From: Sphingopyxis sp. GW247-27LB
GTDB lineage: Bacteria; Pseudomonadota; Alphaproteobacteria; Sphingomonadales; Sphingomonadaceae
NCBI RefSeq assembly: GCF_002277025.1
Contig: NZ_NIWD01000015.1
Span: 241,968-305,967, forward strand
Direction of reading: 5' to 3'
DNA: 64,000 nucleotides
Shown: in pieces, positions 2,234 through 63,370 of the stretch
How positions within the stretch are numbered: position 1 is the first letter of the stretch
Layout: the number at the start of each line of letters is the position of its first letter
Translations under genes and position numbers: made by a program
Notes under the pieces: generated by a model
What the model was told of the DNA's origin: nothing
Databases searched by the model: none
Seen by the model: only the letters and a program-made list of their open reading frames with translations

Positions 2234-2261
2234 GATACGCACCCCAAAGCTCTACCCCTCA
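2234..2261 (-). promoter_or_regulatory. ECF-type promoter motif (P1) before TonB receptor
   Basis: On the minus strand this reads TGAGGG, 16 bases, CGTATC, with a G just before CGTA. It matches the motif found before the copper genes in both copper modules. It points at the TonB receptor starting at 2107 and would give a leader of roughly 120 nt. Inferred from pattern identity only. Confidence 0.6.
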
Positions 2262-11807: not shown

Positions 11808-12332
11808 TCATGCGCGAAATTGCGCAACCTTGCCGTCGCCAGCGAACGCCATCACTTCGAAGGCGTCGGTTCTTCCATCCGGCATTTCCATGCCCGGAGA
11901 TCCGCGCGGCATGCCAGGCACGGCGATCCCGCGAATGTCGCGCGGCTTGTCGCGAAGCAGCTTCGCGACATGTGGCATCGGCACATGGCCTTCGATGGCA
12001 TAGCCACCGACGATCGCGGTGTGACACGAAGCTAGCTCGTCGGGCACACCATATCGCGCCTTTACGGCAGGCATGTCGGAACGGTTCTCAACGGTCACCG
12101 CATAGCCCGCCGCGCGCGCAATATCCGCCCAGGCTTCACAGCATCCGCATTCGGGATCGCGATAGACGAGCATCTGCCGGATGTTCGCCGCATCGGCGCG
12201 AGGCTCGCGAGCCCCGCCGTCTTTGTCGCTGGTTGCCGCCGGTCCCGGGGAAGAATTGCATGCCGCAAGCCCCATCCCCGAGCCGACGGCAATCAGACCG
12301 AGAAGGTGACGGCGCGTCATCGGACTTTTCAT
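11808..12332 (-). CDS. DUF411 metal-binding protein
   Basis: DUF411 proteins are small exported proteins common in copper and mercury resistance clusters and are thought to bind metal. Seen: 174 residues. The N-terminus has RRHLLGL and a lipobox-like GLAAC, so it is either a Tat-exported protein or a lipoprotein. The conserved cysteine cluster DPECGCCEAW is at about residues 58-67, followed by ASCHTA and GHVPM, the usual DUF411 hallmarks. The ATG at 12332 has AGGA eight bases upstream. It follows the DUF305 gene directly, with no gap beyond the stop codon. Confidence 0.9.
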   Translation of the reverse strand: MKSPMTRRHLLGLIAVGSGMGLAACNSSPGPAATSDKDGGAREPRADAANIRQMLVYRDPECGCCEAWADIARAAGYAVTVENRSDMPAVKARYGVPDELASCHTAIVGGYAIEGHVPMPHVAKLLRDKPRDIRGIAVPGMPRGSPGMEMPDGRTDAFEVMAFAGDGKVAQFRA

Positions 12333-12333: not shown

Positions 12334-12777
12334 TCATTTCCTCGCGAGAATGGATTTCATCTGTTCGATTTCGGCCGCCTGCCCTGCGATGATGCCGCGG
12401 CAAAGTTCGCGTATTTCGGCATCCCTGAGGGAAGCCTGTTCGCACATGAGGATCGCGCCCGAATGATGCGGGATCATCGAACGCAAGAAGGCCGTGTCGC
12501 CGATGGTCGTCTGAGTCCGAATCAGCGCGAAGCTTCCGAAGAAGGCGACTGCCGATCCCAGCAGCAGGAGCGTGTTAAGGCGTTTCGACGGGAACATGTC
12601 AGGCATCGCGACGATCATCAGTACGACCATCGGCGAAACCATCATCAGCGTCATGTAGAGCATGTTGAGATTATTGTAGAAGCTCGAGAGGCGGTCGATC
12701 ATGACGAACATCACCAGATACATGATGACGCCGCTGATGATTGTCTGCAGCGCGAGGCTGCGATAGGCTGGTTTCAC
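12334..12777 (-). CDS. DUF305-type membrane protein
   Basis: Small inner-membrane protein with a DUF305-like C-terminal part, often found in copper islands; its biochemical role is not established. Seen: 147 residues with hydrophobic helices in the first ~100 residues. The family motif FLRSMIPHHSGAILMC follows, then a cysteine-containing helix (IRELCRGIIAGQ). The start is the GTG at 12777, because GAGGAGAA lies eight bases before it; the longer upstream reading is non-family sequence. Cotranscribed after copB. Confidence 0.85.
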   Translation of the reverse strand: MKPAYRSLALQTIISGVIMYLVMFVMIDRLSSFYNNLNMLYMTLMMVSPMVVLMIVAMPDMFPSKRLNTLLLLGSAVAFFGSFALIRTQTTIGDTAFLRSMIPHHSGAILMCEQASLRDAEIRELCRGIIAGQAAEIEQMKSILARK

Positions 12778-12815
12778 GGCATTTCTCCTCGACGTGTCGC
12801 CACCCCGCGAAACTT

Positions 12816-14033
12816 CTAGAACCAGGCCCGCACCCCCATCACGAAACTGACACCGCTCGCATCCTCGCCAGCGGCGCGGGCGAAACGCGCGGTATCGCCG
12901 ACCTTGCCGGCCCATTCGACGCCGACATAAGGCGCGAACTCCTTCACGACCTCGTAACGCAGGCGAAGCCCGAGCTCGAAGTCGGAGAGGCCCGAGCCAA
13001 CGCCGGTCTCGGGGACATCCTGGAGCGCAAAATTGACCTCCGCCATCGGCTGCAGGATCAGCTTCTGCGTGATGCGCTGGTCGTAATAGCCTTCGAGCCG
13101 GGCGAGCAGGTCACCCTTGTTCGAAAGGAACAGAGCGCCCTCGACTTCGAACCAATAGGGCGCGAGCCCCTCGAAACCGATCGTCGCATAGGTGCGATCG
13201 GGGCCGAGTCCGAGATCCTGCCTGATACCCGCCTGCGCGTTGAAATAGGGTCCGATCGCCCGGCTGTACAGCGCCTGTACCTCGGCGCCTTCGATGCCTT
13301 CGCCGAACACGCCCTCGCCTTCGCTCTTGATCGTCAGCCGGTTGATGTCGCCGCCGTACCAGGCCTCACCGTCCCAGCGGAACCCGTCGCGGCCCTTGCG
13401 CGCCTGAAATTCGGCAAGGTTGAAGCTGATGAAAGCGATGGTCTGCGCGCCATTCTCTTTCATCATGTCGTGGCGCGAATGCTCCATTTCGGCTTTGGGG
13501 TAGATGCGATCGGCATACCAGTCGCCGGGAGGCGCAGGCGCGGTAGCATCTCCCGGCGGCAAATCGGTGCCGCTAGCGCTGGTCGTGGTCGCCATGCCTT
13601 CCATTCCCGCCACGGGGTCCGCATATCCGCCCTTCGGGGTGCAATGGCCCATTTTGGCATGTTCGGGCGGGCAATCGGGATCGGACGGCTGCGGTGCGCC
13701 ATGATCCATCGCGCCCATGTCCGAAGCGCCCTTGTCTGGAGCCTCCGCCTCAGGCGTACAATGACCCATCGCCGCATGTTCGGGCGGGCAGCTTGAAGCC
13801 TCGGGTTCCATGTCCATGCCCTGCATGTTCCCATGGTCCATCTGCTCCATCGACCCTTCGGCGGGCGCTTCGGGCGCGGGCTGCGCTACCGGCGCTGGCG
13901 CTGGCGTTGGCGAGGGAACGGGTGTCGGCGCGGGCGCCGCGCCATGCATCGAATGATTCATGGACTGCGCGGCAGCGGGCACAGCAAATGTCAGCGGGGC
14001 GATACCCGCGAGGAGAAGCGCGACCCGGGTCAT
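12816..14033 (-). CDS. copB: Copper resistance protein CopB (module 1)
   Basis: Outer-membrane copper resistance protein. Seen: 405 residues from the ATG at 14033, which overlaps the copA stop (ATGA). A signal peptide is followed by a Met/His/Pro-rich region over about residues 24-150, then the CopB barrel beginning near DWYADRIYPKAEMEHSRHDM and ending in aromatic GVRAWF. The Met-rich region holds two copies of a motif CPPEHAxMGHCTP that also occurs in the neighbouring CopA. The paralogue CopB2 (62405-63370) lacks this motif and is 84 residues shorter. CopB normally works with CopA by sequestering or moving copper at the outer membrane. Confidence 0.94.
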   Translation of the reverse strand: MTRVALLLAGIAPLTFAVPAAAQSMNHSMHGAAPAPTPVPSPTPAPAPVAQPAPEAPAEGSMEQMDHGNMQGMDMEPEASSCPPEHAAMGHCTPEAEAPDKGASDMGAMDHGAPQPSDPDCPPEHAKMGHCTPKGGYADPVAGMEGMATTTSASGTDLPPGDATAPAPPGDWYADRIYPKAEMEHSRHDMMKENGAQTIAFISFNLAEFQARKGRDGFRWDGEAWYGGDINRLTIKSEGEGVFGEGIEGAEVQALYSRAIGPYFNAQAGIRQDLGLGPDRTYATIGFEGLAPYWFEVEGALFLSNKGDLLARLEGYYDQRITQKLILQPMAEVNFALQDVPETGVGSGLSDFELGLRLRYEVVKEFAPYVGVEWAGKVGDTARFARAAGEDASGVSFVMGVRAWF

Positions 14034-15880
14034 TCGCCGTCTCCCTTCGGACGGACGCTGACGACGCGCATCATCCCCGCGTGCATGTGATAGAGAAGGT
14101 GGCAATGGAACGCCCAGTCGCCGAGCGCGTCGGCGGTGAAGTCGAAACTCGCGGTCCCGCCCGGCTGGACCAGCACCGTATGCTTGCGCGGCGACCGGTC
14201 GCCCCTCCCCGTGACCAGCTCGAAAAAATGGCCGTGCAGGTGGATGGGGTGGCTCATCATCGAATCGTTGATGAGGTTCACACGCACCCGCTCGCCCTCG
14301 ATGAAGGGGATGGGTTCGTGATGATCGGACATCTTCACGCCGTCGAACGACCACATGAAGCGTTCCATGTTGCCTGTCAGATGGATGTCGAGCGAGCGCG
14401 AGGCGGCGCGCACGTCAGGATTGCGCTCGAGCGCCACCAGATCGTGGTAGGTCAGCACCTTGTGCCCGACGTCTTCAAGTCCCTGTCCTGGCTCGCCCAT
14501 GCGATCCATCGGCATCGGCGAGATCGTCTGGACGCTCGGGTCGCGCTTGACCTGCGGCGCGACACTGAAGTCGCGCATGCTGTGCTGCATGCCTCCGCCC
14601 GATCCATGATCCATGCCCGCCATCGCGCCGCTTTCTCCCGCTGGCGTGCAATGGCCCATCTTGGCATGTTCAGGGGGACAGGAAGGATCGCTCGCCGGCA
14701 TGGGCATGGCGCCCATATCGCCGCCGCCCGAATGGTCCATGCCCGCCATCGAGCCGCCCGACATATCCATGTCGCCCATGCCCATGTCCTTCATCGTCGC
14801 GAGTGGCCGCTCGCGGAGCGGCGGCACCTCGGCGACAATGCCGGCGCGCGGTGCGAGCGTCGCGCGCCCCATGCCCGAGCGGTCATTGGCCTCGGCAACG
14901 AGCGTATAAGCTCGGTCCTCGACCGGGGTCACGATGACGTCGTAGGTCTCGGCAACCGCGATCTGGAACTCGTCGATCTCGGTCGGCACGACATTGAGGC
15001 CGTCGGCCTGCACCACGGTCATCCTGAGGCCCGGGATGCGGACGTTGAAGATCGTCATCGCCGACGCATTGACGATACGCAGCCGCACGCGCTCCCCCGG
15101 CTTGAAGAGCGCGGTCCAGTTATCGCGCGGGCCGTGGCCGTTGACGAGGAAAGTGTAGGTTGAACCATTGACGTCGGCGACGTCGGTCGGGTCCATCCGC
15201 ATCGCGCCCCACTCGATCCGGTCCTTCAGCGGCTGGTCCTTACCGGCAAGGAGACCGCTCAGCGTCTGGCGCTGCATGTTGAAATGGCCGGGATTGACCT
15301 TGAGCTTGCGGAAGATCGCCTCGGGCGACAATTGACTGTGGTCGGACAGGACGACGACATGCTCGCGATCATAACCGATCGGGTCGGCGCCAGCAGGATC
15401 GATGACGATCGGGCCATAGTGGCCGAGCTGCTCCTGGAGACCCGAGTGACTGTGATACCAGTAGGTCCCCGACTGGACGACCGGGAATTCATAGACGAAT
15501 TGAGAGCGCGGTTTGATCCCCGGAAAGCTGACGCCCGGCACGCCGTCCATCTGGAACGGCAGGATCAGGCCGTGCCAGTGAATCGAGCTGTCCTCGTCGA
15601 GATCGTTGACGACGGTCAGGCGCGCGGTCTGTCCTTCCTTCAGCCGGACGAGCGGCGCGGGCACGGTGCCGTTGATCCCGATCGCACGGCTGACCTTGCC
15701 GTCGATGCGCATAGTCTGGCGCGCGATGCGCAGCGTGATGTCATTGCCGGATACGGTCGGAAGAGGCGCGGTGATGCCCGACGACACCGGCTGGGCCCAG
15801 GCCGGGAACCATGCGGCCATCGCCGCAGCCGCCCCTCCGCCCAAAGCTCCACTGACGAACCGGCGCCTTTCCATCTGCAT
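14030..15880 (-). CDS. copA: Copper resistance multicopper oxidase CopA (module 1)
   Basis: Periplasmic multicopper oxidase thought to oxidise Cu(I) and bind extra copper. Seen: 616 residues with a twin-arginine signal (MERRRFVSGALGGG) for folded export. The four copper-ligand motifs are present: IHWHG, YWYHSHSG, HPIHLHGHFF and HCHLLYHMHAGM. Between about residues 360 and 440 there is a Met/His-rich insert with several MxxM and MDHS patches and one CPPEHAKMGHCTP motif. The ATG at 15880 has GGAAAGAA before it. A dedicated ECF-type promoter lies at 15915-15942, so copAB can be driven apart from the upstream sigma operon. Confidence 0.96.
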   Translation of the reverse strand: MQMERRRFVSGALGGGAAAAMAAWFPAWAQPVSSGITAPLPTVSGNDITLRIARQTMRIDGKVSRAIGINGTVPAPLVRLKEGQTARLTVVNDLDEDSSIHWHGLILPFQMDGVPGVSFPGIKPRSQFVYEFPVVQSGTYWYHSHSGLQEQLGHYGPIVIDPAGADPIGYDREHVVVLSDHSQLSPEAIFRKLKVNPGHFNMQRQTLSGLLAGKDQPLKDRIEWGAMRMDPTDVADVNGSTYTFLVNGHGPRDNWTALFKPGERVRLRIVNASAMTIFNVRIPGLRMTVVQADGLNVVPTEIDEFQIAVAETYDVIVTPVEDRAYTLVAEANDRSGMGRATLAPRAGIVAEVPPLRERPLATMKDMGMGDMDMSGGSMAGMDHSGGGDMGAMPMPASDPSCPPEHAKMGHCTPAGESGAMAGMDHGSGGGMQHSMRDFSVAPQVKRDPSVQTISPMPMDRMGEPGQGLEDVGHKVLTYHDLVALERNPDVRAASRSLDIHLTGNMERFMWSFDGVKMSDHHEPIPFIEGERVRVNLINDSMMSHPIHLHGHFFELVTGRGDRSPRKHTVLVQPGGTASFDFTADALGDWAFHCHLLYHMHAGMMRVVSVRPKGDGE

Positions 15881-15914: not shown

Positions 15915-15942
15915 TATACGCAGGCGGCACCGCTGCCCCTCA
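15915..15942 (-). promoter_or_regulatory. ECF-type promoter motif (P2) before copA of module 1
   Basis: Minus strand reads TGAGGG, 16 bases, CGTATA, with G before CGTA. It sits in the gap between the sigma gene stop and copA, about 35 bp before the copA start. Confidence 0.75.
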
Positions 15943-15993: not shown

Positions 15994-16578
15994 TCAACCC
16001 TCGGCGCTCGCGGATGTTCCCGCGAGCAATTCCCGGAGCCTGGTCCGCGCTCGATAGAGACGGGTTTCGACCGTTTTCTCGCTGACGCGCAAAATCACCG
16101 CGGTTTCGGCCTGGCTGACCTCGTCGACACCGCGGAGGAGCAACACCTCGCGCAAATTCTGTGGCAGCTGGTCGATCGCCCCGCGAACCCTGGCAAGCTC
16201 TCGCCTGTCGGTCGCAGCGGAATCGGGCGCAGGACCATCGCTCGCTATGTGATGCGCGCTCTCGAGTGGGAGCGCGCGGGAGAAAAAGGCCCGAACCTTT
16301 CGCCGTCGTGCCCAGTCGCGACATTTGTTGAGCGCGATACGCGCGATCCAGGTACGAAAGGGCCGATCGCCATCATAGCGATCAAGCGCAGAAAAACCGG
16401 AGACGAAGGTCTCCTGCGTTAAATCCATCGCCTCGTCGGTATCGCCGATCTGCTTTGCGATGAGCCGGTATACGCCCGTTTTGTAACGGCGCAGCAACTC
16501 GCGATAGGCGTCCTCGCGGTGCGCGCGCGCAAACGTCGCTAAATCCTGGTCGCTATATTGCGATAGGTCGGCGCTCAC
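15994..16578 (-). CDS. ECF sigma factor, CnrH-like (module 1)
   Basis: RNA polymerase sigma factor of the extracytoplasmic-function group. Seen: 194 residues. Region 2 includes DLTQETFVSGFSALDRYDG and PFRTWIARIALNKCRDWARR. Region 4 has LREVLLLRGVDEVSQAETAV with a helix-turn-helix VSEKTVETRLYRAR. It overlaps the sensor gene by four bases (ATGA). Gene order (small membrane protein, periplasmic sensor, sigma) is that of cnrYXH/nccYXH in Cupriavidus, where the Y protein holds the H sigma until X senses metal. Here the trio leads copAB, so a copper signal is likely (inference). Expected target: the TGAGGG-N16-CGTA motif, including its own operon promoter. Confidence 0.93.
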   Translation of the reverse strand: MSADLSQYSDQDLATFARAHREDAYRELLRRYKTGVYRLIAKQIGDTDEAMDLTQETFVSGFSALDRYDGDRPFRTWIARIALNKCRDWARRRKVRAFFSRALPLESAHHIASDGPAPDSAATDRRELARVRGAIDQLPQNLREVLLLRGVDEVSQAETAVILRVSEKTVETRLYRARTRLRELLAGTSASAEG

Positions 16579-17012
16579 CGCGCATCGGCGGTCAGCGCCT
16601 TGACCACGCTCTTGTCGAACATTTCCGCTTGATCGGGGTTGAGAACCCCTCGCATCGCGAAGAGATGCTGGAGCGTTTCCTTCTGCAATGTCCCCATCAC
16701 CTCATGCGTCTCGTCGATCGCCTCGGTGACGCGCGGTCCATAGCCATGTTCGGCTTCGATCGCCTGCGCAAGCCGGACGTTGGCGGCGCGCATCTCGAGT
16801 TCGAGCGCCTGGCGGCGACCGGCGAAGTCGGCTTCGATCCGCTCGAGTTTCACTTCCTGCTCCGGGGTCAGGTCGAGTTGACCGTGGAGAAGCGCATGAA
16901 GTTCGGTTTCGCTGGCTCTGGGCGCATCGGCCACCAGACGGCCGATGAACACGCCGGCAATCGCGGCGGCGAAAGCAATGAGCCCTAAGAGAAGAAGACG
17001 GCGCGACGGCAT
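16575..17012 (-). CDS. CnrX-like periplasmic metal sensor (module 1)
   Basis: Membrane-anchored periplasmic metal sensor of the metal-resistance (CnrX/Spy-like) family. Seen: 145 residues with an N-terminal membrane anchor (about residues 6-28), then helical, charged sequence. His39, His43, Glu60, His116 and Met120 have exactly the spacing of the CnrX metal ligands His42, His46, Glu63, His119 and Met123 (4, 17, 56, 4). The paralogue in module 2 has the same set. It lies between the anti-sigma-like and sigma genes. By analogy, metal binding would release the sigma through the Y protein. Which metal binds cannot be read from the sequence; the neighbours argue for copper. Confidence 0.9.
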   Translation of the reverse strand: MPSRRLLLLGLIAFAAAIAGVFIGRLVADAPRASETELHALLHGQLDLTPEQEVKLERIEADFAGRRQALELEMRAANVRLAQAIEAEHGYGPRVTEAIDETHEVMGTLQKETLQHLFAMRGVLNPDQAEMFDKSVVKALTADAR

Positions 17013-17014
17013 TG

Positions 17015-17281
17015 CTACTGCACATCCAGCAAGGTGGAAGGCGCCAATGCGCTAGGCGGACCGAACGGGGTAAGCGGACTTGCCGCGACCGCCGGCTGGG
17101 AAATCGCGCTCCCCGCAAAAATACCGCCGCCAAGCGAGACAAAGGCCGCGAGCGCCATCAGGCGGCGCGTCGCAACCGCTTCGCGCCGGCGGATCGCCAA
17201 TGCACCCATGATGCGATCGTCGAGCGCGTCGAGCGCTGCGGGCAGATCGATCCTGTTCAAAATGCGAAGCTCCTCATCCAT
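17015..17281 (-). CDS. CnrY-like small membrane anti-sigma factor (module 1)
   Basis: Probable anti-sigma factor that holds the CnrH-like sigma at the membrane. Seen: 88 residues, with about 40 cytoplasmic residues (LRILNRIDLPAALDALDDRI, then a basic stretch), one transmembrane segment (about residues 40-60) and a short periplasmic tail ending PSALAPSTLLDVQ. Size and topology match CnrY (about 95 residues). The tail motif APSTLLD recurs in the module 2 paralogue although the rest has diverged, so it may be the contact to the X sensor. The ATG at 17281 has GAAGAGA upstream; the upstream TTG reading is rejected. First gene of the leftward operon behind promoter P3. Confidence 0.82.
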   Translation of the reverse strand: MDEELRILNRIDLPAALDALDDRIMGALAIRRREAVATRRLMALAAFVSLGGGIFAGSAISQPAVAASPLTPFGPPSALAPSTLLDVQ

Positions 17282-17313: not shown

Positions 17314-17341
17314 CATACGCGCCGAAACGCTTCACCCCTCA
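17314..17341 (-). promoter_or_regulatory. ECF-type promoter motif (P3) for Y-X-sigma operon of module 1
   Basis: Minus strand: TGAGGG, 16 bases, CGTATG, preceded by G. It ends about 33 bp before the ATG at 17281, so the sigma would drive its own operon. It sits back-to-back with P4. Confidence 0.78.
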
Positions 17342-17353: not shown

Positions 17354-17381
17354 TGAGGGCCATGCCGATATCCTGCGTATT
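17354..17381 (+). promoter_or_regulatory. ECF-type promoter motif (P4) for copC-copD of module 1
   Basis: Plus strand: TGAGGG, 16 bases, CGTATT, preceded by G. It ends about 31 bp before the copC ATG. Together with P3 it forms a divergent promoter pair whose -35 elements lie 12 bp apart. Confidence 0.78.
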
Positions 17382-17411: not shown

Positions 17412-17795
17412 ATGTTCAAGTCTCTTCTCCCCTCTGCAGCCGCGGCTTTCGCACTGCTTATCACGCCGGTCGCAGCGAGCGCCCACACCAAGCTCGTCAG
17501 CTCGACGCCGGCCGCCAATTCGACCGTTTCGAAGGTCACGTCGGTCAATCTGCAGTTCAACGAAAAGATCGTCGCCTCGACCCTCAAGACCGAGCTGGTC
17601 ATGACCGGCATGCCCGGCATGGCCAATCATGCACCGATGAAGGTGCCTTACTCGTCGATGATGGGCAAAGAGGGCAAGTCGGCGATGCTGATGCTCAAGC
17701 GGCCGCTGACAGCCGGAACCTACAAGGTCACATGGTCGGCGGCGGGCGCTGATACCCACCGCATGGGCAGCGAATTCAGCTTCACCGTAAAGTAA
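17412..17795 (+). CDS. copC: Periplasmic copper chaperone CopC (module 1)
   Basis: Small periplasmic copper-binding protein that hands copper to CopD or CopA. Seen: 127 residues. A signal peptide is cut before His (ASA/HTKLVSS), so the mature protein starts with the copper-ligand His. The second conserved site is ADTHRMGSEFSF near the C-terminus. A Met-rich loop (GMPGMANHAPM) lies between, typical of Cu(I)-binding CopC forms. GGAGG lies just before the ATG. The first gene of the rightward arm, followed seven bases later by copD. Confidence 0.95.
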   Translation: MFKSLLPSAAAAFALLITPVAASAHTKLVSSTPAANSTVSKVTSVNLQFNEKIVASTLKTELVMTGMPGMANHAPMKVPYSSMMGKEGKSAMLMLKRPLTAGTYKVTWSAAGADTHRMGSEFSFTVK

Positions 17796-17801: not shown

Positions 17802-18770
17802 GTGGGGGACCCCGTTCTGATCGGCATCAGGTTCGCACTCTATGCGGACCTGATGCTCATCGCCGGTCTTGGTGCGTTCCCGCTTTTTGCGCTGACACGG
17901 AGCGAACGCCTTGCGCCGCAGCCGATGATGGCCGCGATCTGGCGCGCAGAACGGTGGCTCTGCACCATCGGGCTCCTCGTCTCCACCCTCGGAATGGGCG
18001 TGCTCGCGGCCTCGATGCAGGGCGTGGGCATCCTCTCCCTGGAATTCCAGCCATTCTGGGACCTTGTTCGCGAGACCGACGTCGGCACAGCCTGGGTCTA
18101 CCGGAGCGCAGCGCTGCTGCTCGCGCTGGCAGTCGCGATCTGGATGGTCCGCTGGCCGACCACTTCGGCCGCCGTACTCGCGGGCGCAGGCTCGGTGGCC
18201 GTCGCGAGTCTGGTCTGGTCCGGCCACGCCGGCGCGACCGAAGGCACCGCGGGCACCATCCACCGGATCAGCGATATATTGCATATGATCGCGGCCGCGG
18301 TCTGGGTTGGCGCGATCGGCGCCTTTCTTCTCCTGATTTCGCCGCGACGCGTCCGCGACTGGCCGGACGGGCTCGCTGTTGCCGCACGCAGCCTCGATCG
18401 ATTTTCCCTGGTCGGTACGGTCTGCGTCCTCATCATTGCCGTGACCGGGCTCATCAACAGCCAGCTCATCGTCGGCGCCGAGAACATCGGCCGGTCGCTC
18501 GGCTCGCCCTATGGACAATTGCTCCTTGCCAAGCTGGCGCTGTTCGGACTGATGCTGGCCCTCGCCGCCGCCAATCGCTGGCGCCTCACGCCGGCGCTCG
18601 CCGCTGCGGTGGCGGGCGGCGATGCCGAAGACATCGATACCGATCCAGACGCTGCGCTCGCGGCCATGCGCAGGAGCCTGATCATCGAAGCGCTGGCCGC
18701 CCTCGCCATTCTCGCGCTGGTCGCGTGGTTCGGCACGCTCGAACCATTTGTCGGCGCCGACGCGGCTTGA
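17802..18770 (+). CDS. copD: Copper resistance inner-membrane protein CopD (module 1)
   Basis: Integral membrane protein thought to move copper across the inner membrane with CopC. Seen: 322 residues with about eight hydrophobic segments, conserved histidines in VWSGHAGATEG and IHRISDILHMIAAAVWVG, and the usual CopD ending. The start is a GTG at 17802 right behind copC, with no strong ribosome-binding site, so coupling to copC is likely. Its stop overlaps the start of the broken AraC gene. Confidence 0.92.
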   Translation: MGDPVLIGIRFALYADLMLIAGLGAFPLFALTRSERLAPQPMMAAIWRAERWLCTIGLLVSTLGMGVLAASMQGVGILSLEFQPFWDLVRETDVGTAWVYRSAALLLALAVAIWMVRWPTTSAAVLAGAGSVAVASLVWSGHAGATEGTAGTIHRISDILHMIAAAVWVGAIGAFLLLISPRRVRDWPDGLAVAARSLDRFSLVGTVCVLIIAVTGLINSQLIVGAENIGRSLGSPYGQLLLAKLALFGLMLALAAANRWRLTPALAAAVAGGDAEDIDTDPDAALAAMRRSLIIEALAALAILALVAWFGTLEPFVGADAA

Positions 18771-24220: not shown

Positions 24221-25447
24221 ATGCGCCTATTCTTTACGGCAGCCTTGCTCGCGCTGCCCACGGCCCTTCACGCCGAGCCGATGACGCTCGACACGGCGCT
24301 TGGGCTGGCAGCGACGCGCGCGCCGGAACTGCAAGCTCGCGAAGCCGGCATCGACGCCGCCCAATCGGCGGCGATCGCCGCCGACCGGCTGCCCGACCCG
24401 AAACTCAATATCGTCCTGCAGGACTTCCCGGTGACCGGGCCCGATGCGGGCCGGTTCAATCGCGACGATTTCACGATGCAGGTCATCGGCGTCAGCCAGG
24501 ATTTTCCGAACCCCGCCAAGCGCCGCGCGCGCGCAACGCGCGCGCAGGCCGATATCGGAATCGCCCGCGCCGACGAGGCGGTCACTGCGCAGGACATCAG
24601 GCTCGCGACCGCGCTCGCCTGGGTCGATCTCTTCTACGCCAAGAAGCGCCTCAAGGAACTCGACCTGCTCGATACCGGCCTCGAAGACCTTCAAGCGACG
24701 GTGACCGCGCGGCTCGCCAGCGGCGCGGCGCGCCCGGCGCACGCGCTCGAGCCCGACCAGCTTCGCGCCGCGATCGCCGATCGCCGCAGCGCGCTCGCCG
24801 CCGAGATCGCCCGAGCCCGCGCACAGCTCGCCCGCTTTACCGGCGACCCCGCCGCCGATACGCTCGGCGATTTGCCGCCGCAGATGATCGACGAGCAAGG
24901 ATTGCGCGCCGGGATCGACGCCCTGCCAAGGCTACGCGCGCTCGACGCCCGCGCGCTCGCGGCCGATGCCGAGACCGGTCTCGCGCGCGCCGACAAGCGC
25001 CCCGACTGGAGCGTCAATGCGGCCTATGGGCGGCGCGAACCCAATTTTGGCGACCTCGTCACGGTCGGGGTTACCGTCGACCTGCCCTTCTTCTCGAAGA
25101 AACGGCAGGACCCGAAGATTGCCGCGCGCGCCAGCGAAGCGGCGCGCGCGCGGCTCGACCGCGAGGCGGCCAAGCGCGACATCGCGGCGGCGCTCGACGC
25201 CGATCTCGCCGATCACCGCATGCATCATGAGCAGCTCGCCAATGCGCGCACGCGGCTCGTGCCGCTCGCGAAGAAGCGCGCCGAGCTCGATCTTGCAAGT
25301 TACGCCGCCGGAAAGCTCGACCTCGGGACCGCACTGCTGTCGACCCTCGCGCTCGCCGAGGCCGAAGTCGATGCGCTGGCGCGCGAAGCCGAGGTCGCGC
25401 GCGACGCGATCCGGATCAATTATGTTTATGGGGAGGCAGGTCGATGA
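24221..25447 (+). CDS. RND outer-membrane channel, TolC/CzcC family (Cus-type operon)
   Basis: Outer-membrane duct of a tripartite metal efflux pump. Seen: 408 residues with a signal peptide (FTAALLALPTALHA) and two outer-membrane-efflux repeats rich in Ala/Arg/Glu coiled-coil helices. The family pattern DPKLNIVLQDFPVTG is near residue 65. There is no lipobox. The stop overlaps the next gene by four bases (ATGA), so channel, adaptor and pump are made together. It belongs with the Cus-type adaptor and pump downstream and probably exports Cu(I)/Ag(I). Confidence 0.92.
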   Translation: MRLFFTAALLALPTALHAEPMTLDTALGLAATRAPELQAREAGIDAAQSAAIAADRLPDPKLNIVLQDFPVTGPDAGRFNRDDFTMQVIGVSQDFPNPAKRRARATRAQADIGIARADEAVTAQDIRLATALAWVDLFYAKKRLKELDLLDTGLEDLQATVTARLASGAARPAHALEPDQLRAAIADRRSALAAEIARARAQLARFTGDPAADTLGDLPPQMIDEQGLRAGIDALPRLRALDARALAADAETGLARADKRPDWSVNAAYGRREPNFGDLVTVGVTVDLPFFSKKRQDPKIAARASEAARARLDREAAKRDIAAALDADLADHRMHHEQLANARTRLVPLAKKRAELDLASYAAGKLDLGTALLSTLALAEAEVDALAREAEVARDAIRINYVYGEAGR

Positions 25448-29600: not shown

Positions 29601-29804
29601 ACCGTCGCGGTGATCCTCGCGGGCCTGTTCCCGATCCTCGTCGGGACCGGCACCGGCTCCGAAGTGATGAGCCGCATCGCCGCGCCGATGATCGGCGGCA
29701 TGCTGACCGCGCCGCTGCTCTCGATGCTCATCATTCCCGCCGCCTATCTGCTGATGCGCAGGCGCGCGGCCCATCCCGTTCAACCCGAAGGAGAAATGAC
29801 ATGA
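26670..29804 (+). CDS. cusA: Cus-type heavy-metal RND pump (HME4 class)
   Basis: Proton-driven inner-membrane pump for Cu(I)/Ag(I). Seen: 1044 residues, the normal length. TM4 carries [20 protein letters not shown], the pattern of the monovalent-metal CusA class rather than the DFGxxxDG pattern of CzcA. Two large periplasmic loops and the duplicated RND layout are present. The start at 26670 overlaps the adaptor stop; the upstream extension of the frame is a shadow. It is followed at once by a CusF-like chaperone gene, again as in Cus systems. Compare the CzcA-type pump at 36660-39887. Confidence 0.95.
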
Positions 29805-35503: not shown

Positions 35504-35507
35504 TCCC

Positions 35508-36656: not shown

Positions 36657-36659
36657 GCC

Positions 36660-47816: not shown

Positions 47817-48173
47817 TTACGGCTTGGCGGGGTCGGCGTGACCGGTTTGCTGCCCCGCGCCGCCTTGAGCGCCGTGGCCCATCATTTGACGCATCATCTG
47901 GGGCATCATCTCACTCATCATCTGCCGCATCTTTGCCTCATCGCAGCAGCATTTGCCGTCCATCATCTGGTTGCCTTGGCCGCCGGCTGCCGGTCCGGCT
48001 GCGTGATCATGACCTGGTTGGGCCGTACCGGACTTCGGGGCAGGAGGCGTGGCCGGCTGGCCGGCCGCTGCTTCGCCAGCGGCATGCTGGTGAGGATCGG
48101 CGGTTTTGGTCTGCGCCTGAACCGGCACGGCGGCGAAAGCGGCAATGGCCACGAGCGGCAAAATGAACTTCAT
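47817..48173 (-). CDS. Met/His-rich periplasmic metal-binding protein
   Basis: Probable copper-binding protein; no named family recognised. Seen: 118 residues with a signal peptide (FILPLVAIAAFAAVPVQA) and a His/Gly/Ala/Pro-rich middle (HQHAAGEA, GHDHAAGP). Then come a triple cysteine DGKCCCDEAKM and a run of methionines (MRQMMSEMMPQMMRQMMGHG). AAGGAGG lies seven bases before the ATG at 48173. It follows the ECF-type promoter P5 at 48232-48259, so the sigma factors probably control it together with the HlyD/ABC exporter behind it. Confidence 0.82.
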   Translation of the reverse strand: MKFILPLVAIAAFAAVPVQAQTKTADPHQHAAGEAAAGQPATPPAPKSGTAQPGHDHAAGPAAGGQGNQMMDGKCCCDEAKMRQMMSEMMPQMMRQMMGHGAQGGAGQQTGHADPAKP

Positions 48174-48231: not shown

Positions 48232-48259
48232 CATACGCAGGGCGATCGCGAGCCCCTCA
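48232..48259 (-). promoter_or_regulatory. ECF-type promoter motif (P5) inside the long minus-strand run
   Basis: Minus strand: TGAGGG, 16 bases, CGTATG, preceded by G. It lies about 58 bp before the Met/His-rich protein start, in a gap of about 95 bp after DUF5676, and would allow separate induction of the exporter part. Confidence 0.75.
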
Positions 48260-57985: not shown

Positions 57986-58855
57986 TCAAGATGCCGGATC
58001 GAGCGTGCCGAGCCAGCCAACCAATGCCAGTACGGCGAGGGCGAGTGTGAATTCGACAGAAATGCTCGTGCGCAAGGCCCGCCCGGATTCGGCGATGCCG
58101 GTTGCGGCACTCCGCGCCGCCAGCCTGGGTGTCAGTTTGAAGCGATTGATCGAGGCCATCACCAGCATCCCCCCGAAGAGAACGAGTTTCAGTAGCAACA
58201 GGCGCTCGTATACGTTCGGCGGCCCCCAGCCTCTCTGATCGAGATCAATCTGGTAGACCACGTTGATCAGGCCGGAAGCTGCCAGTGCGATCACTGCGAT
58301 CGTGCCGACCGTCGAGAAGCGCCTGAGTGCAGCATAGCACACTTCTACATCTCGGGGAATCAATCGCAGGAACATGGCCAACGCCCCGAGCCAGGTGCCC
58401 GCGGCAAGAAGGTGGATAAGGCCGGCTGCAAGATGGATCGAGCCGCCTGGTCGCGGGGTCGAGTTTCCATGCCCCGCCCATGCGAGCGTCAGCAGCGCGC
58501 CGCCGCCAAGCATGGTGGCGAGCCATCCGTTCTTCGCGGTGATCGACGCAATTGCGGCGAGCGCGGAAAGCAGGATGAGGCGCACGAGCGCCGCCCGTCC
58601 GAAGCCGGTTTGCCCGACCACCATGCCCAGCAATTGTGGATCGATCTGCGCCGCCGATGCGCCGGCCATGGCGGCAGAAGTCAGCTGAAGAGATGCAAGG
58701 GTCAGGACGATGCCAGCGATCGCCAGCACCAACAGGAGCTTGCGAGGGACATGCTCCGCGCCGGGGTTGTAGAGTGCGAAAAGCGGCATGCCAAAGAGCA
58801 GCCCCAGATCGGTATACAGCGCCCAGCGCAGGAGATGGATTGCCCCCGGTTCCAC
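57986..58855 (-). CDS. copD: Copper resistance inner-membrane protein CopD (module 2 side)
   Basis: Integral membrane protein paired with CopC. Seen: 289 residues from a GTG at 58855, with about eight hydrophobic segments and conserved His in LTLAWAGHGNS and SIHLAAGLIHLLAAGTWLG, as in CopD. It starts one base after the copC stop. Paralogue of CopD at 17802-18770 but shorter. Confidence 0.92.
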   Translation of the reverse strand: MEPGAIHLLRWALYTDLGLLFGMPLFALYNPGAEHVPRKLLLVLAIAGIVLTLASLQLTSAAMAGASAAQIDPQLLGMVVGQTGFGRAALVRLILLSALAAIASITAKNGWLATMLGGGALLTLAWAGHGNSTPRPGGSIHLAAGLIHLLAAGTWLGALAMFLRLIPRDVEVCYAALRRFSTVGTIAVIALAASGLINVVYQIDLDQRGWGPPNVYERLLLLKLVLFGGMLVMASINRFKLTPRLAARSAATGIAESGRALRTSISVEFTLALAVLALVGWLGTLDPAS

Positions 58856-58856
58856 T

Positions 58857-59252
58857 CTACCGGACCGTGAAGGAAATTTTCCCGGTGATCCGGTGCGTGT
58901 CGGTGGAGACGGCGCGCCAGTTCACGTCATAGCTGCCCTGGGGGAGACGGCGCGCCAAGGTTCCAACCAGCGATTTGCCGTCGGGGCCAACCCTTACGAT
59001 GATGCCGCCAACCTTCAACGGCTGGTGTTGATGACCCGGAGCCATGCCGGGCATTGCGGTCATGACCACATCGAAGCCGGAAAAGGCAGCCGTCAGCGGT
59101 TCGCTGAATGTCAGGACAATGCGGTCAACGTGGTTGACGCTCGCCGATTGCGCCGGTGTCGCGGCTACAAGTCGAGGGTGGGCCAAAACCGGCGCGGAAA
59201 TGCCGATCGTCGCGGCGGCCAATGCGCTGGCAAGGGTCTTGTAAAGCTTCAT
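58857..59252 (-). CDS. copC: Periplasmic copper chaperone CopC (module 2 side)
   Basis: Periplasmic copper carrier. Seen: 131 residues with a signal peptide cut before His (VLAHPRLVAA) and the second ligand site STDTHRITGKISFTV at the end; a Met/His loop GMAPGHQHQP lies between. GAAGGA precedes the ATG at 59252. It opens the leftward run behind promoter P6 and is divergent from the CnrY-like gene, exactly as copC of module 1. Confidence 0.94.
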   Translation of the reverse strand: MKLYKTLASALAAATIGISAPVLAHPRLVAATPAQSASVNHVDRIVLTFSEPLTAAFSGFDVVMTAMPGMAPGHQHQPLKVGGIIVRVGPDGKSLVGTLARRLPQGSYDVNWRAVSTDTHRITGKISFTVR

Positions 59253-59284
59253 GAAAGAGTCCTTCGCTATGCAGTTCCTTGCCG

Positions 59285-59312
59285 TTTACGCAGCAGGGCG
59301 GCATAGCCCTCA
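59285..59312 (-). promoter_or_regulatory. ECF-type promoter motif (P6) for copC-copD and the long minus-strand run
   Basis: Minus strand: TGAGGG, 16 bases, CGTAAA, preceded by G. It ends about 32 bp before the copC start. Its -35 half lies 18 bp from that of the divergent P7. Confidence 0.72.
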
Positions 59313-59330
59313 CATTCTCCGATATATTTT

Positions 59331-59358
59331 TGAGGGAAAAGTACGCCGGCAGCGTATC
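59331..59358 (+). promoter_or_regulatory. ECF-type promoter motif (P7) for Y-X-sigma of module 2
   Basis: Plus strand: TGAGGG, 16 bases, CGTATC, preceded by G. It ends about 32 bp before the ATG at 59391. Confidence 0.78.
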
Positions 59359-59390
59359 AGCCTGACAAGTTCAACCGCAGCGAGACGGAC

Positions 59391-59669
59391 ATGACGGAAT
59401 TGGATCAACTGCTGGCCCGGGTTCGGGATTTGCCGCCCGACCCACGGCTGTCGTCCATCGACGCCGGAGTATTCGATGGTCTTGCCGCCCTGGCGGCCCG
59501 GCACGCCCTGCCCAGGGCTGCATTCGGCATGGCCTTTGGCATTGCCCTGTCAGTCGGTCTGTTGGGCTCAGCGCTTCCCCCGACGCCTGCGCAGGCTGCT
59601 TCGTTGTTCCCGCTGGGCGTCCCGCCGGTGCTGGCGCCTTCGACCCTGCTGGATGGCGCGCATGAATAA
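59391..59669 (+). CDS. CnrY-like small membrane anti-sigma factor (module 2)
   Basis: Probable anti-sigma factor for the module 2 sigma. Seen: 92 residues, with a cytoplasmic N-terminus (MTELDQLLARVRDLPPDPRL), one hydrophobic segment (about residues 46-62) and a periplasmic tail SLFPLGVPPVLAPSTLLDGA. The tail shares P-x-LAPSTLLD with the module 1 protein, the only strongly conserved stretch. GAGACGG lies before the ATG. Its end overlaps the sensor gene by 8 bp. I rate the anti-sigma role as inferred from order and topology. Confidence 0.8.
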   Translation: MTELDQLLARVRDLPPDPRLSSIDAGVFDGLAALAARHALPRAAFGMAFGIALSVGLLGSALPPTPAQAASLFPLGVPPVLAPSTLLDGAHE

Positions 59670-60102
59670 TCGGATCGGTCTCGGTCTGATCGCGCTGCTC
59701 GCCTTCGGCTCGGCGCTTGGCGGACTGTTCATCGGTCGCGCGTGGATTTTGCCTCAGAAGCCGGTCGAATCCGAGATCCACGTCCTGCTGCACCATGAAC
59801 TGAAACTCGACGCGCAGCAGGAAGCGCAGATTGAGAAGTTCGAGCGCGCGTTTGCGCCGCGAAAACAGGCCCTGGAACTCGAACTGCGTAGCGACAATGC
59901 CCGGCTTGCCGCTGCGATCGAGGCGGAACACGGCTACGGGCCGCAGGTCCAGGCGGCGGTCGACCGGTCGCACACCGCGATGGGCGAACTCCAGAAGATC
60001 ACGCTCGAACATATCTTTGCCATGCGTGGCGTGCTGCGGCCCAATCAAGCAGCCCGCTTCGATGAGGCCGTGACAAGGGCGCTCACCGCCAGAGAGCGGT
60101 GA
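59662..60102 (+). CDS. CnrX-like periplasmic metal sensor (module 2)
   Basis: Periplasmic sensor paralogous to 16575-17012. Seen: 146 residues, an N-terminal membrane anchor (IGLGLIALLAFGSALGGLFI) and a helical domain. His40, His44, Glu61, His117 and Met121 keep the 4-17-56-4 spacing of the CnrX metal ligands. Blocks AIEAEHGYGP and HIFAMRGVL are shared with the module 1 sensor. The ATG at 59662 overlaps the Y gene. The stop shares one base with the sigma ATG. Confidence 0.9.
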   Translation: MNNRIGLGLIALLAFGSALGGLFIGRAWILPQKPVESEIHVLLHHELKLDAQQEAQIEKFERAFAPRKQALELELRSDNARLAAAIEAEHGYGPQVQAAVDRSHTAMGELQKITLEHIFAMRGVLRPNQAARFDEAVTRALTARER

Positions 60103-60662
60103 TGATCGACCTTGCCGGATGCAGCGATGGCGAACTCGCGGCGCTGGCGCTTGGCGGACGACAGACAGCCTATGGCGAACTCATGCGCCGCCACCGCGAG
60201 GCGATCTTCCGCCTGGCGCGAAGCCACACCGGTGACGATGATACCGCACTCGAGGTTACCCAGCAGAGCTTCATCTCGGCATTTGCAGCGCTGAGGTCCT
60301 ATGATCCCCAGCGCCCGTTCCGCACCTGGATCAGCCGGATCGCGATCAACAAGTCACGTGACCTTGCTCGCCGCCGCATGGTGCGGCGGGCTTTCGCCTT
60401 TGCCTTGCCGCTGGAGGATGCCCGTGACGTTGCCGATGGCCACGTATTGGCCGACGCCGCGCTCGCGGACAGGGAGGAACTCAATCATACCATGGCGGCG
60501 ATTGCGACCCTTCCGACCAGGTTGAAGGAAGTGCTGCTGCTCCGTACGATCGAAGGCCTCAGCCAGTCTGAAGCAGCCGAGGTCCTCGAGATCAGCGAAA
60601 AGGCCGCGGAAACTCGGCTCTACCGGGCCCGCATGAAATTGCAGGAAATTCTGAGGGCCTGA
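60102..60662 (+). CDS. ECF sigma factor, CnrH-like (module 2)
   Basis: Sigma factor paralogous to 15994-16578. Seen: 186 residues. Region 2 has EVTQQSFISAFAALRSYDPQ and PFRTWISRIAINKSRDLARR. Region 4 has LKEVLLLRTIEGLSQSEAAE and ISEKAAETRLYRARMKL. A GTG three bases earlier is an alternative start. The -35 half of the copA promoter P8 lies inside the last codons of this gene. Both sigma factors probably recognise the same TGAGGG-N16-CGTA sites, which would make the modules cross-talk. Confidence 0.92.
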   Translation: MIDLAGCSDGELAALALGGRQTAYGELMRRHREAIFRLARSHTGDDDTALEVTQQSFISAFAALRSYDPQRPFRTWISRIAINKSRDLARRRMVRRAFAFALPLEDARDVADGHVLADAALADREELNHTMAAIATLPTRLKEVLLLRTIEGLSQSEAAEVLEISEKAAETRLYRARMKLQEILRA

Positions 60663-60679
60663 AGCCTCGTCCGCGTATC
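60652..60679 (+). promoter_or_regulatory. ECF-type promoter motif (P8) before copA of module 2
   Basis: Plus strand: TGAGGG, 16 bases, CGTATC, preceded by G. The -35 half overlaps the end of the sigma coding sequence. It lies about 34 bp before the copA start, at the same place relative to copA as P2 in module 1. Confidence 0.75.
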
Positions 60680-60713
60680 AGGTCAAGTTACGCAAGTCAG
60701 GGACGAATCCTTC

Positions 60714-62408
60714 ATGCATTTTCTCGATCTGGATCGCCGCAGCCTCCTGCGTGGCGGCGCGCTGTTCGGTGGAAGCGCGGCGCTCGCTGCGTGGTTACCG
60801 GCCTGGGCGCAGCCGGTGTCGGCAGGGCTCATCGCCTCGCCGCAGACCTTGAGCGGGCCCGAGATCGAACTGAAAGTCGCCACAGACACAATCCGGATCG
60901 AGGGCCGCACAGCGCGCGCCGTCACGATGAATGGAACCGTCCCCGCCCCGCTCCTGCGCTTGCGCGAAGGACAGACAGTCCGCATCCGGGTGGTCAATGA
61001 CCTCGACGAGGAAACCTCGCTGCACTGGCACGGACTTCTGGTGCCGTTCCAGATGGACGGCGTGCCGGGAGTGTCGTTCCCGGAAATCAAGCCGCGCTCA
61101 ACCTTCACTTACGAGCTCCCGGTCAATCAGGCCGGCACGTACTGGTATCACAGCCATTCGGGCCTCCAGGAACTGATGGGCCATTACGGTCCGATCGTGG
61201 TCGATCCCGCCGGTCCTGATCCGGTGCAGTACGACCGCGAGCATGTCGTGGTGCTGTCCGACCACAGCTTCGTCCATCCGGCGCGGATCCTGCGCAACCT
61301 CAAGCTCGATCCCGGCTACTACAACCGGCAGCGCCAGACTCTGGAAAGCCTGCTCGCAGGAAAGGACCAGCCCCTGTCGGAACGCGTGGCCTGGGGGCGC
61401 ATGCGGATGGACCCGAGCGATATTTCCGACGTGACCGGCGAGGTGCTGACTTACCTCGTGAACGGCCACGGCCCCGGGGACAACTGGACCGGCCTGTTCC
61501 GCCCTGGCGAAAGGGTGCGGCTGCGCTACATCAATGCCGCTGCGATGACCCTGTTCAACGTGCGCATACCGGGGTTGCAACTAAGCGTCGTCCAGGCAGA
61601 TGGCCAGAACGTTCGGCCCGTCACCGTCGAAGAGTTCCAGATTTCGCCAGGCGAGACTTACGATGTCGTGGTGACGCCCACCGAGGAACGCGCCTACGCC
61701 ATCGTCGGCGAGAGCGTCGACCGGTCGGGCATGGCTGTCGCCACACTCGCTCCGCGCCCTGGCATGCGCGCTGAACCACCTGCGCTGCGCGAGCGTCCGC
61801 TCCTCACCATGAAGGACATGGGCATGGAGATGGAAGGCATGGACATGAAGAGCATGTCCATGCGCGACCGCAAGAACGCCCCGCAGGTGAAGCTGGGGCC
61901 CGGCGTCGAAATGATCAGTCCGATGCCGATGGACCGGACCGGCGAGCCGGGCATCGGCCTCGACAAGGCCGGACACAGGGTGCTGACCTATCGCGACCTC
62001 GTGGCGATCGAGCGTAATCCGGATGTCCGCGCGCCAACGCGGGAAATCGAGGTGCACCTGACCGGCAACATGGAGCGCTACATGTGGTCGATGGACGGCA
62101 AGACGCTGTCCGAGGCGCATGAACCCTTGCCCATCCGCGCCGGCGAGCGCGTCCGCATCACCCTCGTCAACGATACGATGATGGCGCATCCGATCCACCT
62201 GCACGGGCACTACTTCGAACTGGTGACGGGGCATGGCGAATTCAGCCCCCGCAAGCATACGGTAAGCGTGCTTCCCGGCGGCAAGGTCAGCTGGGACGTC
62301 ACGGGGATTCCGGGTGACTGGGCTTTCCACTGCCACCTGTTCCTGCACATGGCCATGGGCATGATGCGCATCGTCCAGGTTCGTCCGGTGGAAGGAGACG
62401 GCCAGTGA
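60714..62408 (+). CDS. copA: Copper resistance multicopper oxidase CopA (module 2)
   Basis: Periplasmic multicopper oxidase. Seen: 564 residues with a twin-arginine signal (DRRSLLRGGALFGGSAAL). The copper motifs LHWHG, YWYHSHSG, HPIHLHGHYF and HCHLFLHMAMGM are present. Its Met-rich insert is short (MKDMGMEMEGMDMKSMSM) and lacks the CPPEHAxMGHCTP motif of the module 1 CopA, which explains most of the 52-residue difference. Its stop overlaps the copB start. Driven by P8 and by read-through from P7. Confidence 0.96.
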   Translation: MHFLDLDRRSLLRGGALFGGSAALAAWLPAWAQPVSAGLIASPQTLSGPEIELKVATDTIRIEGRTARAVTMNGTVPAPLLRLREGQTVRIRVVNDLDEETSLHWHGLLVPFQMDGVPGVSFPEIKPRSTFTYELPVNQAGTYWYHSHSGLQELMGHYGPIVVDPAGPDPVQYDREHVVVLSDHSFVHPARILRNLKLDPGYYNRQRQTLESLLAGKDQPLSERVAWGRMRMDPSDISDVTGEVLTYLVNGHGPGDNWTGLFRPGERVRLRYINAAAMTLFNVRIPGLQLSVVQADGQNVRPVTVEEFQISPGETYDVVVTPTEERAYAIVGESVDRSGMAVATLAPRPGMRAEPPALRERPLLTMKDMGMEMEGMDMKSMSMRDRKNAPQVKLGPGVEMISPMPMDRTGEPGIGLDKAGHRVLTYRDLVAIERNPDVRAPTREIEVHLTGNMERYMWSMDGKTLSEAHEPLPIRAGERVRITLVNDTMMAHPIHLHGHYFELVTGHGEFSPRKHTVSVLPGGKVSWDVTGIPGDWAFHCHLFLHMAMGMMRIVQVRPVEGDGQ

Positions 62409-63370
62409 AAAGGGCGCTTCCCCTTCTCCTCGCTGGCCTGGCCACCCCCGCGATGGCACAGTCCATGGACAGTCCCGTGGATCATTCGATGCATGGGACG
62501 AGCTATACGCCGGCGCCGCCAGCGCCCGTTCCTCAGAGCCCAGCTCCGGCGAGCGATCACGCCGGACACCAGTTGCCTGCACAGGAGAACCTGACTGCAG
62601 CCAATGGCGAACCGGTCGGCACCGATCAGTCGCCCGGAAGCGCCGAGCCGCCGCCCATTGCTCACGACCGTCCCGCCGACCGCTATTACGGTCCCGCGCA
62701 GATGGCAGCGGCGGAAGCGGCGGCCATGGGCGCACATGGCTCGGCCAGCTACACGCAGGTCCTGTTTGATCTCGCCGAATACCAGGTGCGCGATGGCAAG
62801 GACGGCTATCGCTGGGAAGGCGAGGCGTGGGTGGGCGATCTCAACCGGGCCGTGCTCCGCAGCAAGGGCGAAGGCACCTTCGGTGAGGGCATCGAACACG
62901 CCGAATTCCAGATTCTCTACAGCCGTGCGCTCGATCCATGGTGGAATTTGCAGGTCGGTGCCCGCCAGGATTTCCGCCCCGAGCCTGCGCGGACCCACGC
63001 CGTCGTCGGAGTCGAGGGTCTCGCCCCTTACTTCTTTCACGTTACGGCTGCCGCGTTCCTGTCCCACAAGGGCGACGTGACCGGGCGCGTTGAGGCCAGT
63101 TACGACCAGCGCCTGACCCAACGGCTGATCCTTCAGCCCAGGGTGGAGTTCGACCTGTCTGCTCAGGACATTCCCGAACTCAAGATCGGAAGCGGCCTTG
63201 CCCAAGCGGAACTCGGCCTGCGCCTGCGCTACGAAATCAGCCGCGAGTTCGCGCCTTACATCGGCGTGAACTGGACCTGGAAGACCGGCAGAACGGCTGA
63301 CTACGCCCGGATCGACGGACGTGATACGATTGACCGCGCAGCTGTCGCTGGCGTTCGCTTCTGGTTCTAG
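62405..63370 (+). CDS. copB: Copper resistance protein CopB (module 2)
   Basis: Outer-membrane copper resistance protein. Seen: 321 residues from a GTG at 62405 (GTGA overlap with copA). There is a signal peptide (LPLLLAGLATPAMA), a short Met/His region (MDSPVDHSMHG) and Pro/Ala linker, then the CopB barrel from DRYYGPAQMAAAEAAAMGAH on, ending in GVRFWF. Barrel blocks such as GEGTFGEGIEHAEFQILYSR match CopB1 closely, while the N-terminal metal-binding region is much reduced. Confidence 0.94.
   Translation: MKRALPLLLAGLATPAMAQSMDSPVDHSMHGTSYTPAPPAPVPQSPAPASDHAGHQLPAQENLTAANGEPVGTDQSPGSAEPPPIAHDRPADRYYGPAQMAAAEAAAMGAHGSASYTQVLFDLAEYQVRDGKDGYRWEGEAWVGDLNRAVLRSKGEGTFGEGIEHAEFQILYSRALDPWWNLQVGARQDFRPEPARTHAVVGVEGLAPYFFHVTAAAFLSHKGDVTGRVEASYDQRLTQRLILQPRVEFDLSAQDIPELKIGSGLAQAELGLRLRYEISREFAPYIGVNWTWKTGRTADYARIDGRDTIDRAAVAGVRFWF

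Follow-up and report, generated by a model that had tools for sequence, protein, structure and literature searches.

A CnrYXH-type sigma-factor module linked to copper genes in Sphingopyxis, a probable copper-responsive branch of the family

In the CnrYXH system, as passages of PMC7689651 describe it, Y holds H less firmly once metal is bound to X, and H then starts transcription. On plasmid pMOL28 the genes lie in the order cnrYXH-cnrCBAT. A copper-dependent ECF sigma factor, CorE of Myxococcus xanthus, is placed under its own cysteine-rich C-terminal extension in passages of PMC10141476. Our literature search, with most subscription journals outside its scope, found no description of a copper-linked branch of CnrYXH; the group may already be listed in the large ECF reclassification of 2021, and plasmid annotation labels these X proteins mostly just "periplasmic heavy metal sensor." Here we analyzed a stretch of 64,000 nucleotides from Sphingopyxis sp. 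GW247-27LB (the window) that carries such a three-gene module among copper genes. We estimate a probability of roughly 0.85 that this module is a branch of the CnrYXH-type transmembrane sigma switches that responds to copper, a reading carried, at the level of sequence, by the three genes, the ligands and (in a predicted model) the fold of CnrX, a promoter code, the targets of that code, and the co-occurrence of the code with the module.

A three-gene module among copper genes

Three open reading frames occupy positions 15994-17281 of the minus strand in the order Y-X-H, with a gap of 2 nt between Y and X and an overlap of 4 nt between X and H. The preliminary description had taken this order to be that of cnrYXH and nccYXH, and both the open frames and the cnrYXH order on pMOL28 bear it out. 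Y (17015..17281, minus strand, ATG start) is a predicted CnrY-like single-pass anti-sigma factor, as judged from its reading frame, its upstream position, and a weak match in a profile comparison with CnrY (probability 63 over 34 N-terminal columns). It matched no Pfam family. Its length of 88 amino acids and one hydrophobic segment (script criterion) agree with the single transmembrane segment first attributed to it and make it CnrY-like in size and topology; among 218 X genes, a Y-like frame lay directly upstream of 183 and none meeting the criterion was found for the other 35. X (16575..17012, minus strand, 145 aa) is a predicted CnrX-type periplasmic metal sensor, which scored well over the threshold of Pfam PF13801 (Metal_resist; 64.4 bits, cut-off 29.2). 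H (15994..16578, minus strand, GTG start, 194 aa) is a CnrH-like ECF sigma factor with Pfam sigma regions 2 and 4. Its best PDB match was CnrH (4cxf, 1.5e-30), followed by SigW (7.2e-23), and it was 40% identical to CnrH over 184 columns.

The genes on either side are copper genes. Downstream of H on the minus strand lie copA, a multicopper oxidase (14030..15880; TIGR01480, 809.8 bits), and copB, an outer-membrane copper protein (12816..14033; PF05275, 294.3 bits) whose start at 14033 overlaps the copA stop. On the plus strand beyond Y lie copC (17412..17795; NF033814, 99.9 bits, cut-off 95) and copD (17802..18770; NF033808, 282.7 bits). Three proteins of the 4.79-Mb genome belong to PF13801, each in a YXH module beside copAB. 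A second complete module, absent from the preliminary description, lies in the same window at 57986-63370, flanked by a divergent copCD and, at its opposite end, by copAB. It comprises Y (59391..59669, plus strand, 92 aa), X (59662..60102, plus strand, 146 aa, PF13801, 54% identical to the first X), and an open reading frame for H (60099..60662, plus strand), together with copC (58857..59252, minus strand), copD (57986..58855, minus strand), copA (60714..62408, plus strand), and copB (62405..63370, plus strand), these four read from their translations. The third module, on another contig (C12), carries copA and copB behind H; copC and copD were not found near it. Among the best 80 of 234 relatives, the closest named ones were Sphingopyxis.

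Other metal-related genes share this part of the genome. After copB follow DUF411 and DUF305/CopM-like genes (11808-12332 and 12334-12915, minus strand), and such genes recur near X in 81 (DUF411) and 82 (DUF305) of 217 loci. CusCBA-like efflux genes lie at 24221-29804 on the plus strand, where the RND gene (26670-29804) matched CusA best in the PDB (1,565 bits, against 542 for ZneA). No exact H-type promoter stood before these genes, which are therefore probably under other control. The same island holds a second RND system with a DFGLIVDGAV signature (34232-39887, plus strand; RND gene 36660-39887). Within the metal island there is also a frame at 53681-55009 (minus strand) whose motifs suggest an archaeal-type S-adenosylmethionine synthetase.

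To determine how widely X is linked to copper genes, we collected its relatives. With the window protein as query (E 1e-3), 101 of 296 genomes of the order had a relative of X, a count that may include the genome itself or that at the center of the sample. An 11-row profile (E 1e-8; counts include the genome itself or the center genome) found X in 5 of 385 genomes of the class, 17 of 398 of the phylum, 61 of 149 in an alphaproteobacterial family, and 6 of 249 in a family outside the class with cnr-type loci. Loci were taken from the genome matches, which were partly fetched, from named-genome contigs (the best 80 of 234 relatives), and from plasmids, where one search gave 79 records; six plasmid loci were inspected, three from this search and three from another. 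In all there were 220 pieces, each 4 kb or longer and including two from the window; tblastn found X in 217, and the three without it (L256-L258) were dropped. In 196 of the 217 loci, at least one of copA, copB, copC, and copD was located 5 kb or less from X. The set of loci is redundant and rich in Sphingopyxis, with some places fetched from two collections. The 21 loci lacking cop genes within 5 kb comprised 14 with RND genes and 7 with neither. Reduced to unique sequences, 218 X proteins became 174 (157 cop-linked, 10 RND-only, and 7 with neither), and thinning to below 80% identity left 102 of 115 cop-linked, 6 RND-only, and 7 with neither. Plasmid annotations for Sphingopyxis indica and Sphingobium SYK-6 likewise show the order copDC-YXH-copAB.

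A promoter pattern before the module and the copper genes

In the intergenic stretches of both window modules, the pattern TGAGGG-N16-CGTA, first spotted by eye, precedes Y, copC, and copA. The predicted H-type promoters of the first module lie at 17316..17341 (minus strand, 34 nt before Y), at 17354..17379 (plus strand, 32 nt before copC and divergent from the Y promoter), and at 15917..15942 (minus strand, 36 nt before copA). Those of the second lie at 59331..59356 (plus strand, 34 nt before Y), 59287..59312 (minus strand, 34 nt before copC), and 60652..60677 (plus strand, 36 nt before copA), so that all six sites of the YXH/cop units fall 32 to 36 nt upstream of start codons. Two further predicted promoters stand elsewhere in the window. 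One, at 48234..48259 (minus strand), lies 60 nt before a predicted Met/His-rich exported protein without a Pfam family (47817..48173, minus strand, 118 aa); behind it follow HlyD (46854-47810) and the ABC exporter genes, namely an ATP-binding frame read from its translation (45158-46897) and an ABC-2 permease (44064-45161). The other, at 2236..2261 (minus strand), precedes a putative TonB-dependent receptor, read from its translation, that starts at 2107 and runs off the window; the receptor is probably a target, a reading weakened by the distance of the site from the start (128 nt).

The window holds eight exact matches against 0.02 expected from shuffles, a count that is partly circular because the pattern was read off those sites; the tests are the counts across the genome, the genus, and the loci. 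The whole genome (4.8 Mb) contained 12 exact matches, and 1 for a reversed control. Eight of the 12 were at YXH/cop units of the three modules, one was before the Met/His-rich protein, one was before the TonB receptor, and two, on contigs C4 and C14, had no convincing gene behind them, and we take these as chance. Across 80 Sphingopyxis genomes, which are mutually related and in which 6 of the 15 lacking X are less than 90% complete, exact matches averaged 6.15 with X (n = 65) and 1.07 without (n = 15), against 2.43 and 1.93 for the reversed control. The number of matches followed the number of X copies (Spearman's ρ = 0.80; control, ρ = 0.26). There were exceptions: two X-less genomes of the 15 had 4 and 5 matches, and one genome with four X copies had only 2. 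The X-less exceptions were G236, in which three sites lie close together (contig C24, 103806-106127), and G1430; their sites perhaps mark a diverged YXH or leftover targets.

The pattern was also sought with up to one mismatch and a spacer of 15 to 17 in the 320-nt stretch upstream of Y in the 196 cop-linked loci. It was present in 172, of which 135 had the exact form with spacer 16, and the reversed control, run on the Y stretch only, was present in 5 of 196. After H the pattern occurred in 172 cop-linked loci, 147 of them with the exact form; for the strand opposite Y the corresponding figures were 144 and 93. Upstream of Y in the remaining rows, it occurred in 4 of 14 RND-only loci and 3 of 8 others. 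Twelve of the 24 cop-linked misses were inspected, and nine had CAAGGG-N16-CGTA instead. The fetched loci held 422 distinct exact sites, a biased sample in that loci were chosen as near X or near the pattern. Of these, 123 preceded copA, 119 Y (82 called by Y itself and 37 by X just behind it), and 66 copC; 23 more preceded TonB receptors, 9 other genes of the list, and 82 had no assigned gene. In this set, 308 of the 340 exact sites with an assigned gene precede YX, copA, or copC. By eye, the gene-less sites (at most 70 of the 82 listed) preceded diverged Y frames, Met/His- or His-rich exported proteins, and in some cases nothing evident. In four loci (L106, L109, L110, and L133), an exact promoter lay 113 to 118 nt before an amino-acid-permease-like frame (MGTGVMIGAGIFALTGQ...), a possible further member of the regulon.

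Because of this pattern, H is tied to copAB and copCD more directly than by gene order, and H would be the factor that reads it. That the trio serves copAB and copCD, as had been proposed from the gene neighborhood, thus gains support from the promoters before copA and copC and from the Pfam and NCBIfam identities of the cop genes.

Similar elements stand in the nickel/cobalt system. On pMOL28, CGAGGG-N17-CGTA lies between cnrH and cnrC, and CAAGGG-N17-CGTA lies before cnrY. Passages of PMC9045368 place the start sites of cnrC and cnrY at 54660 and 53286; computed against these, the first base of each element lies exactly 35 nt before the start. The same passages leave the class of the cnrY start ambiguous between RpoD- and CnrH-dependent, with 54660 in the other column. 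CGAGGG-N17-CGTA was found after H in all eight cnr/ncc loci outside the alphaproteobacteria (L214-L216, on Cupriavidus plasmids; L227; and L240-L243) and was absent at that place in two alphaproteobacterial cnr-type loci (L235 and L253). It thus seems that CnrH and the H of the copper branch recognize one set of elements, in which the spacer is 17 for the former and 16 for the latter.

The sensor and the metal it would answer to

X has the residues H39, H43, E60, H116, and M120, at spacings of 4, 17, 56, and 4. In the computed alignment with CnrX of C. metallidurans they match, residue for residue, H42, H46, E63, H119, and M123 of that protein, so that the identical spacing first reported for X holds. 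Among 157 unique cop-linked X proteins, H39 was kept in 154, H43, E60, and H116 in 157 each, and M120 in 156; on this alignment, the five-ligand match is not a matter of chance. The best PDB sequence matches of X were NccX (4clv, 1.2e-17) and CnrX, in line with the alignment and the structural match that the preliminary description had looked for. An AlphaFold2 model of X (31 sequences; mean pLDDT 84.9, pTM 0.63) retrieved CnrX or NccX as all of the top 15 Foldseek chains. In VIA-align the model matched CnrX 2y3d with Z 13.2 (rmsd 2.0 over 108 residues), the CnrX/NccX range being Z 10.9 to 13.2 and the first other row Z 9.8; since helical bundles may reach about Z 13 through their common arrangement, we use these scores only together with the sequence match. 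The initial view of a CnrYXH-type module targeting copAB and copCD therefore stands, with an amendment: the five-ligand site, being common to Ni/Co and copper-linked proteins, cannot by itself name the metal that is sensed.

We asked which positions, none of them named in the preliminary description, separate the branches, defined as those with one residue in at least 95% of the 157 unique cop-linked X proteins that is absent from six unique cnr/ncc-type X proteins. There were five (cop-linked/cnr-ncc): Q52/E, H103/E, M106/A, Q128/H, and F132/Y. H103 and M106 occurred together in 157 of 157 cop-linked proteins, as strictly as the ligands H43, E60, and H116, and Glu/Ala stood in their place in 6 of 6 cnr/ncc-type proteins. 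F132 aligns with CnrX Y135, for which a Y135F mutant structure exists (4wwb, by entry title). We tentatively suggest that His103-x-x-Met106 might form a second, soft-ligand metal site, perhaps across a dimer, that would give selectivity for copper, possibly Cu(I), and that the Ni/Co sensor might belong, as a single branch, to a wider family in which the members most often met in our sample serve copper. Other candidates were set aside. H89 and E88 are not copper ligands as a rule (present in 138 and 142 of the 157). A metal cluster of H103/M106 with H116/M120 found no support, as in the model the two pairs would sit on the same predicted helix (93-123) at least 10 residues apart.

The RND-only rows, with RND types assigned by alignment, divide along the same two positions. 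Six of the 10 unique X proteins have E/A and accompany DFGLI-type RNDs. Four have H/M: three of them (L127, L129, and L132, which come from a different family of this order) lie with an RND of CusA-like signature, resembling the window pump at 26670-29804, and the fourth (L105) with a third RND type. Several ligands were lost in L254 and L259, which are divergent rows lacking cop genes. One genome, G978, offers a natural side-by-side case with five X copies (loci L228, L232, L234, and L235): the X of L235 is of cnr type (E/A, beside a DFGLI-type RND), and the other four are of H/M type, two of them identical across the last 110 residues. In a first, midpoint-rooted tree of X, the CnrX/NccX rows formed one clade (100/100) nested among cop-linked rows. 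A descent of CnrX from the copper branch was not upheld, and we claim no direction, because a quick tree with one outgroup and the other rows as one clade was not rejected (p-AU 0.608). With the cnr/ncc rows as one clade, the separation at 103/106 may reflect a single evolutionary event, so its correlation with targets does not amount to many independent cases.

With the ligands unchanged, the metal sensed might still be Ni or Co, or some other divalent metal, the copper genes then being side targets of a broader metal response. According to PDB entry titles, CnrX has been crystallized with each of Ni, Co, Zn, and Cu (copper, 3epv); 21 of the 217 X loci have RND genes at a distance of 5 kb or less, and DFGLI-type RNDs (CzcA/CnrA-like) also occur in several cop-linked loci whose X is H/M (e.g., L092, L161, L162, L163, L168, and L224). 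We nevertheless consider this unlikely: the window's DFGLI-type RND is preceded by none of the 12 exact promoter matches of the genome, positions 103/106 are E/A in cnr/ncc-type X and H/M in cop-linked X, and the three RND-linked loci of the other family that keep H/M have CusA-like signatures. It is less probable still that X answers to copper-caused envelope stress or unfolded protein rather than binding copper. CpxP, ZraP, and Spy are envelope-stress proteins, and the predicted fold of X also resembles them (Z 8 to 9), with a Pfam LTXXQ match below the cut-off. Against this, the five metal ligands are near-invariant in the cop-linked proteins, CnrX and NccX are the nearest structures, and the assigned promoter sites belong mostly to the module itself, copA, and copC. 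Least probable of all is control of the cop genes by another copper regulator, such as CueR or a two-component system, with YXH as a minor input: Caulobacter sp. FWC26 and SYK-6 both have an annotated cueR close to the locus, and SYK-6 has response-regulator genes as well, but in either module of the window copA and copC each have an H-type promoter 32 to 36 nt ahead of them, and promoter number follows X copies.

We thus favor a switch that most probably turns on copper defense once copper, the likely inducer, reaches the cell envelope. Without excess copper, Y would hold H at the inner membrane, and X would keep Y in that state from the periplasm. Copper filling the His/His/Glu/His/Met site would change the shape of X, and Y would release H, a mechanism proposed by analogy with CnrYXH. 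Free H would then direct RNA polymerase to (T/C)(G/A)AGGG-N16-CGTA promoters, at YXH itself (autoregulation), copAB, and copCD, and probably at the genes for the Met/His-rich protein and its ABC exporter and at the TonB receptor. The output would be copper handling in the periplasm and outer membrane (CopAB), CopCD, and probably Met/His-rich buffering and export.

Comparison with described systems

The comparison makes testable the question of how a periplasmic sensor whose five ligands do not change could distinguish copper from nickel or cobalt. Because the natural Ni/Co and copper-linked series differ at five fixed positions only, within one small domain, a handful of point mutants would suffice. 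Many Sphingomonadales and Caulobacteraceae, in some cases on conjugative plasmids, are also predicted to have a copper regulon whose promoter code can be read. The TGAGGG-N16-CGTA code is new here.

Two described ECF sigma factors share the link to copper. SigF-NrsF of Caulobacter crescentus is likewise alphaproteobacterial with a copper-induced regulon, but in passages of PMC8224329, which do not mention a CnrX-like sensor, it has another anti-sigma factor (NrsF) and another regulon. CorE, as described in passages of PMC10141476, also serves copper defense; there the factor's own extension does the work, whereas the present module has a predicted separate periplasmic sensor and membrane anti-sigma factor. 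A CorE-type cysteine-rich C-terminal extension is absent from H, whose sigma region 4 extends to residue 181 of 194 (Pfam) and whose sole cysteine is residue 86.

CnrYXH of C. metallidurans pMOL28 (Ni/Co) is closer. The two share gene order, the five ligands and their spacing, the predicted fold (Z 13.2), an H that is 40% identical, and the same −35/−10 elements before Y and after H. They differ in targets (cop genes here versus cnrCBA), in spacer (16 versus 17), and in X, which here has Q52, H103, M106, Q128, and F132 where CnrX has E, E, A, H, and Y. The Y proteins are barely similar, with a conserved tail LAPSTLL here versus SPFGLLIG in CnrY. The likenesses and differences are the same for NccYXH (Ni/Co/Cd), whose NccX (4clv) ranks first among the PDB sequence matches of X. 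A Ni/Co RND pump (cnrCBA or nccCBA) was not found as a target; the neighbors and promoter targets are copAB and copCD, and we therefore file the module not as cnr or ncc but as their sister branch.
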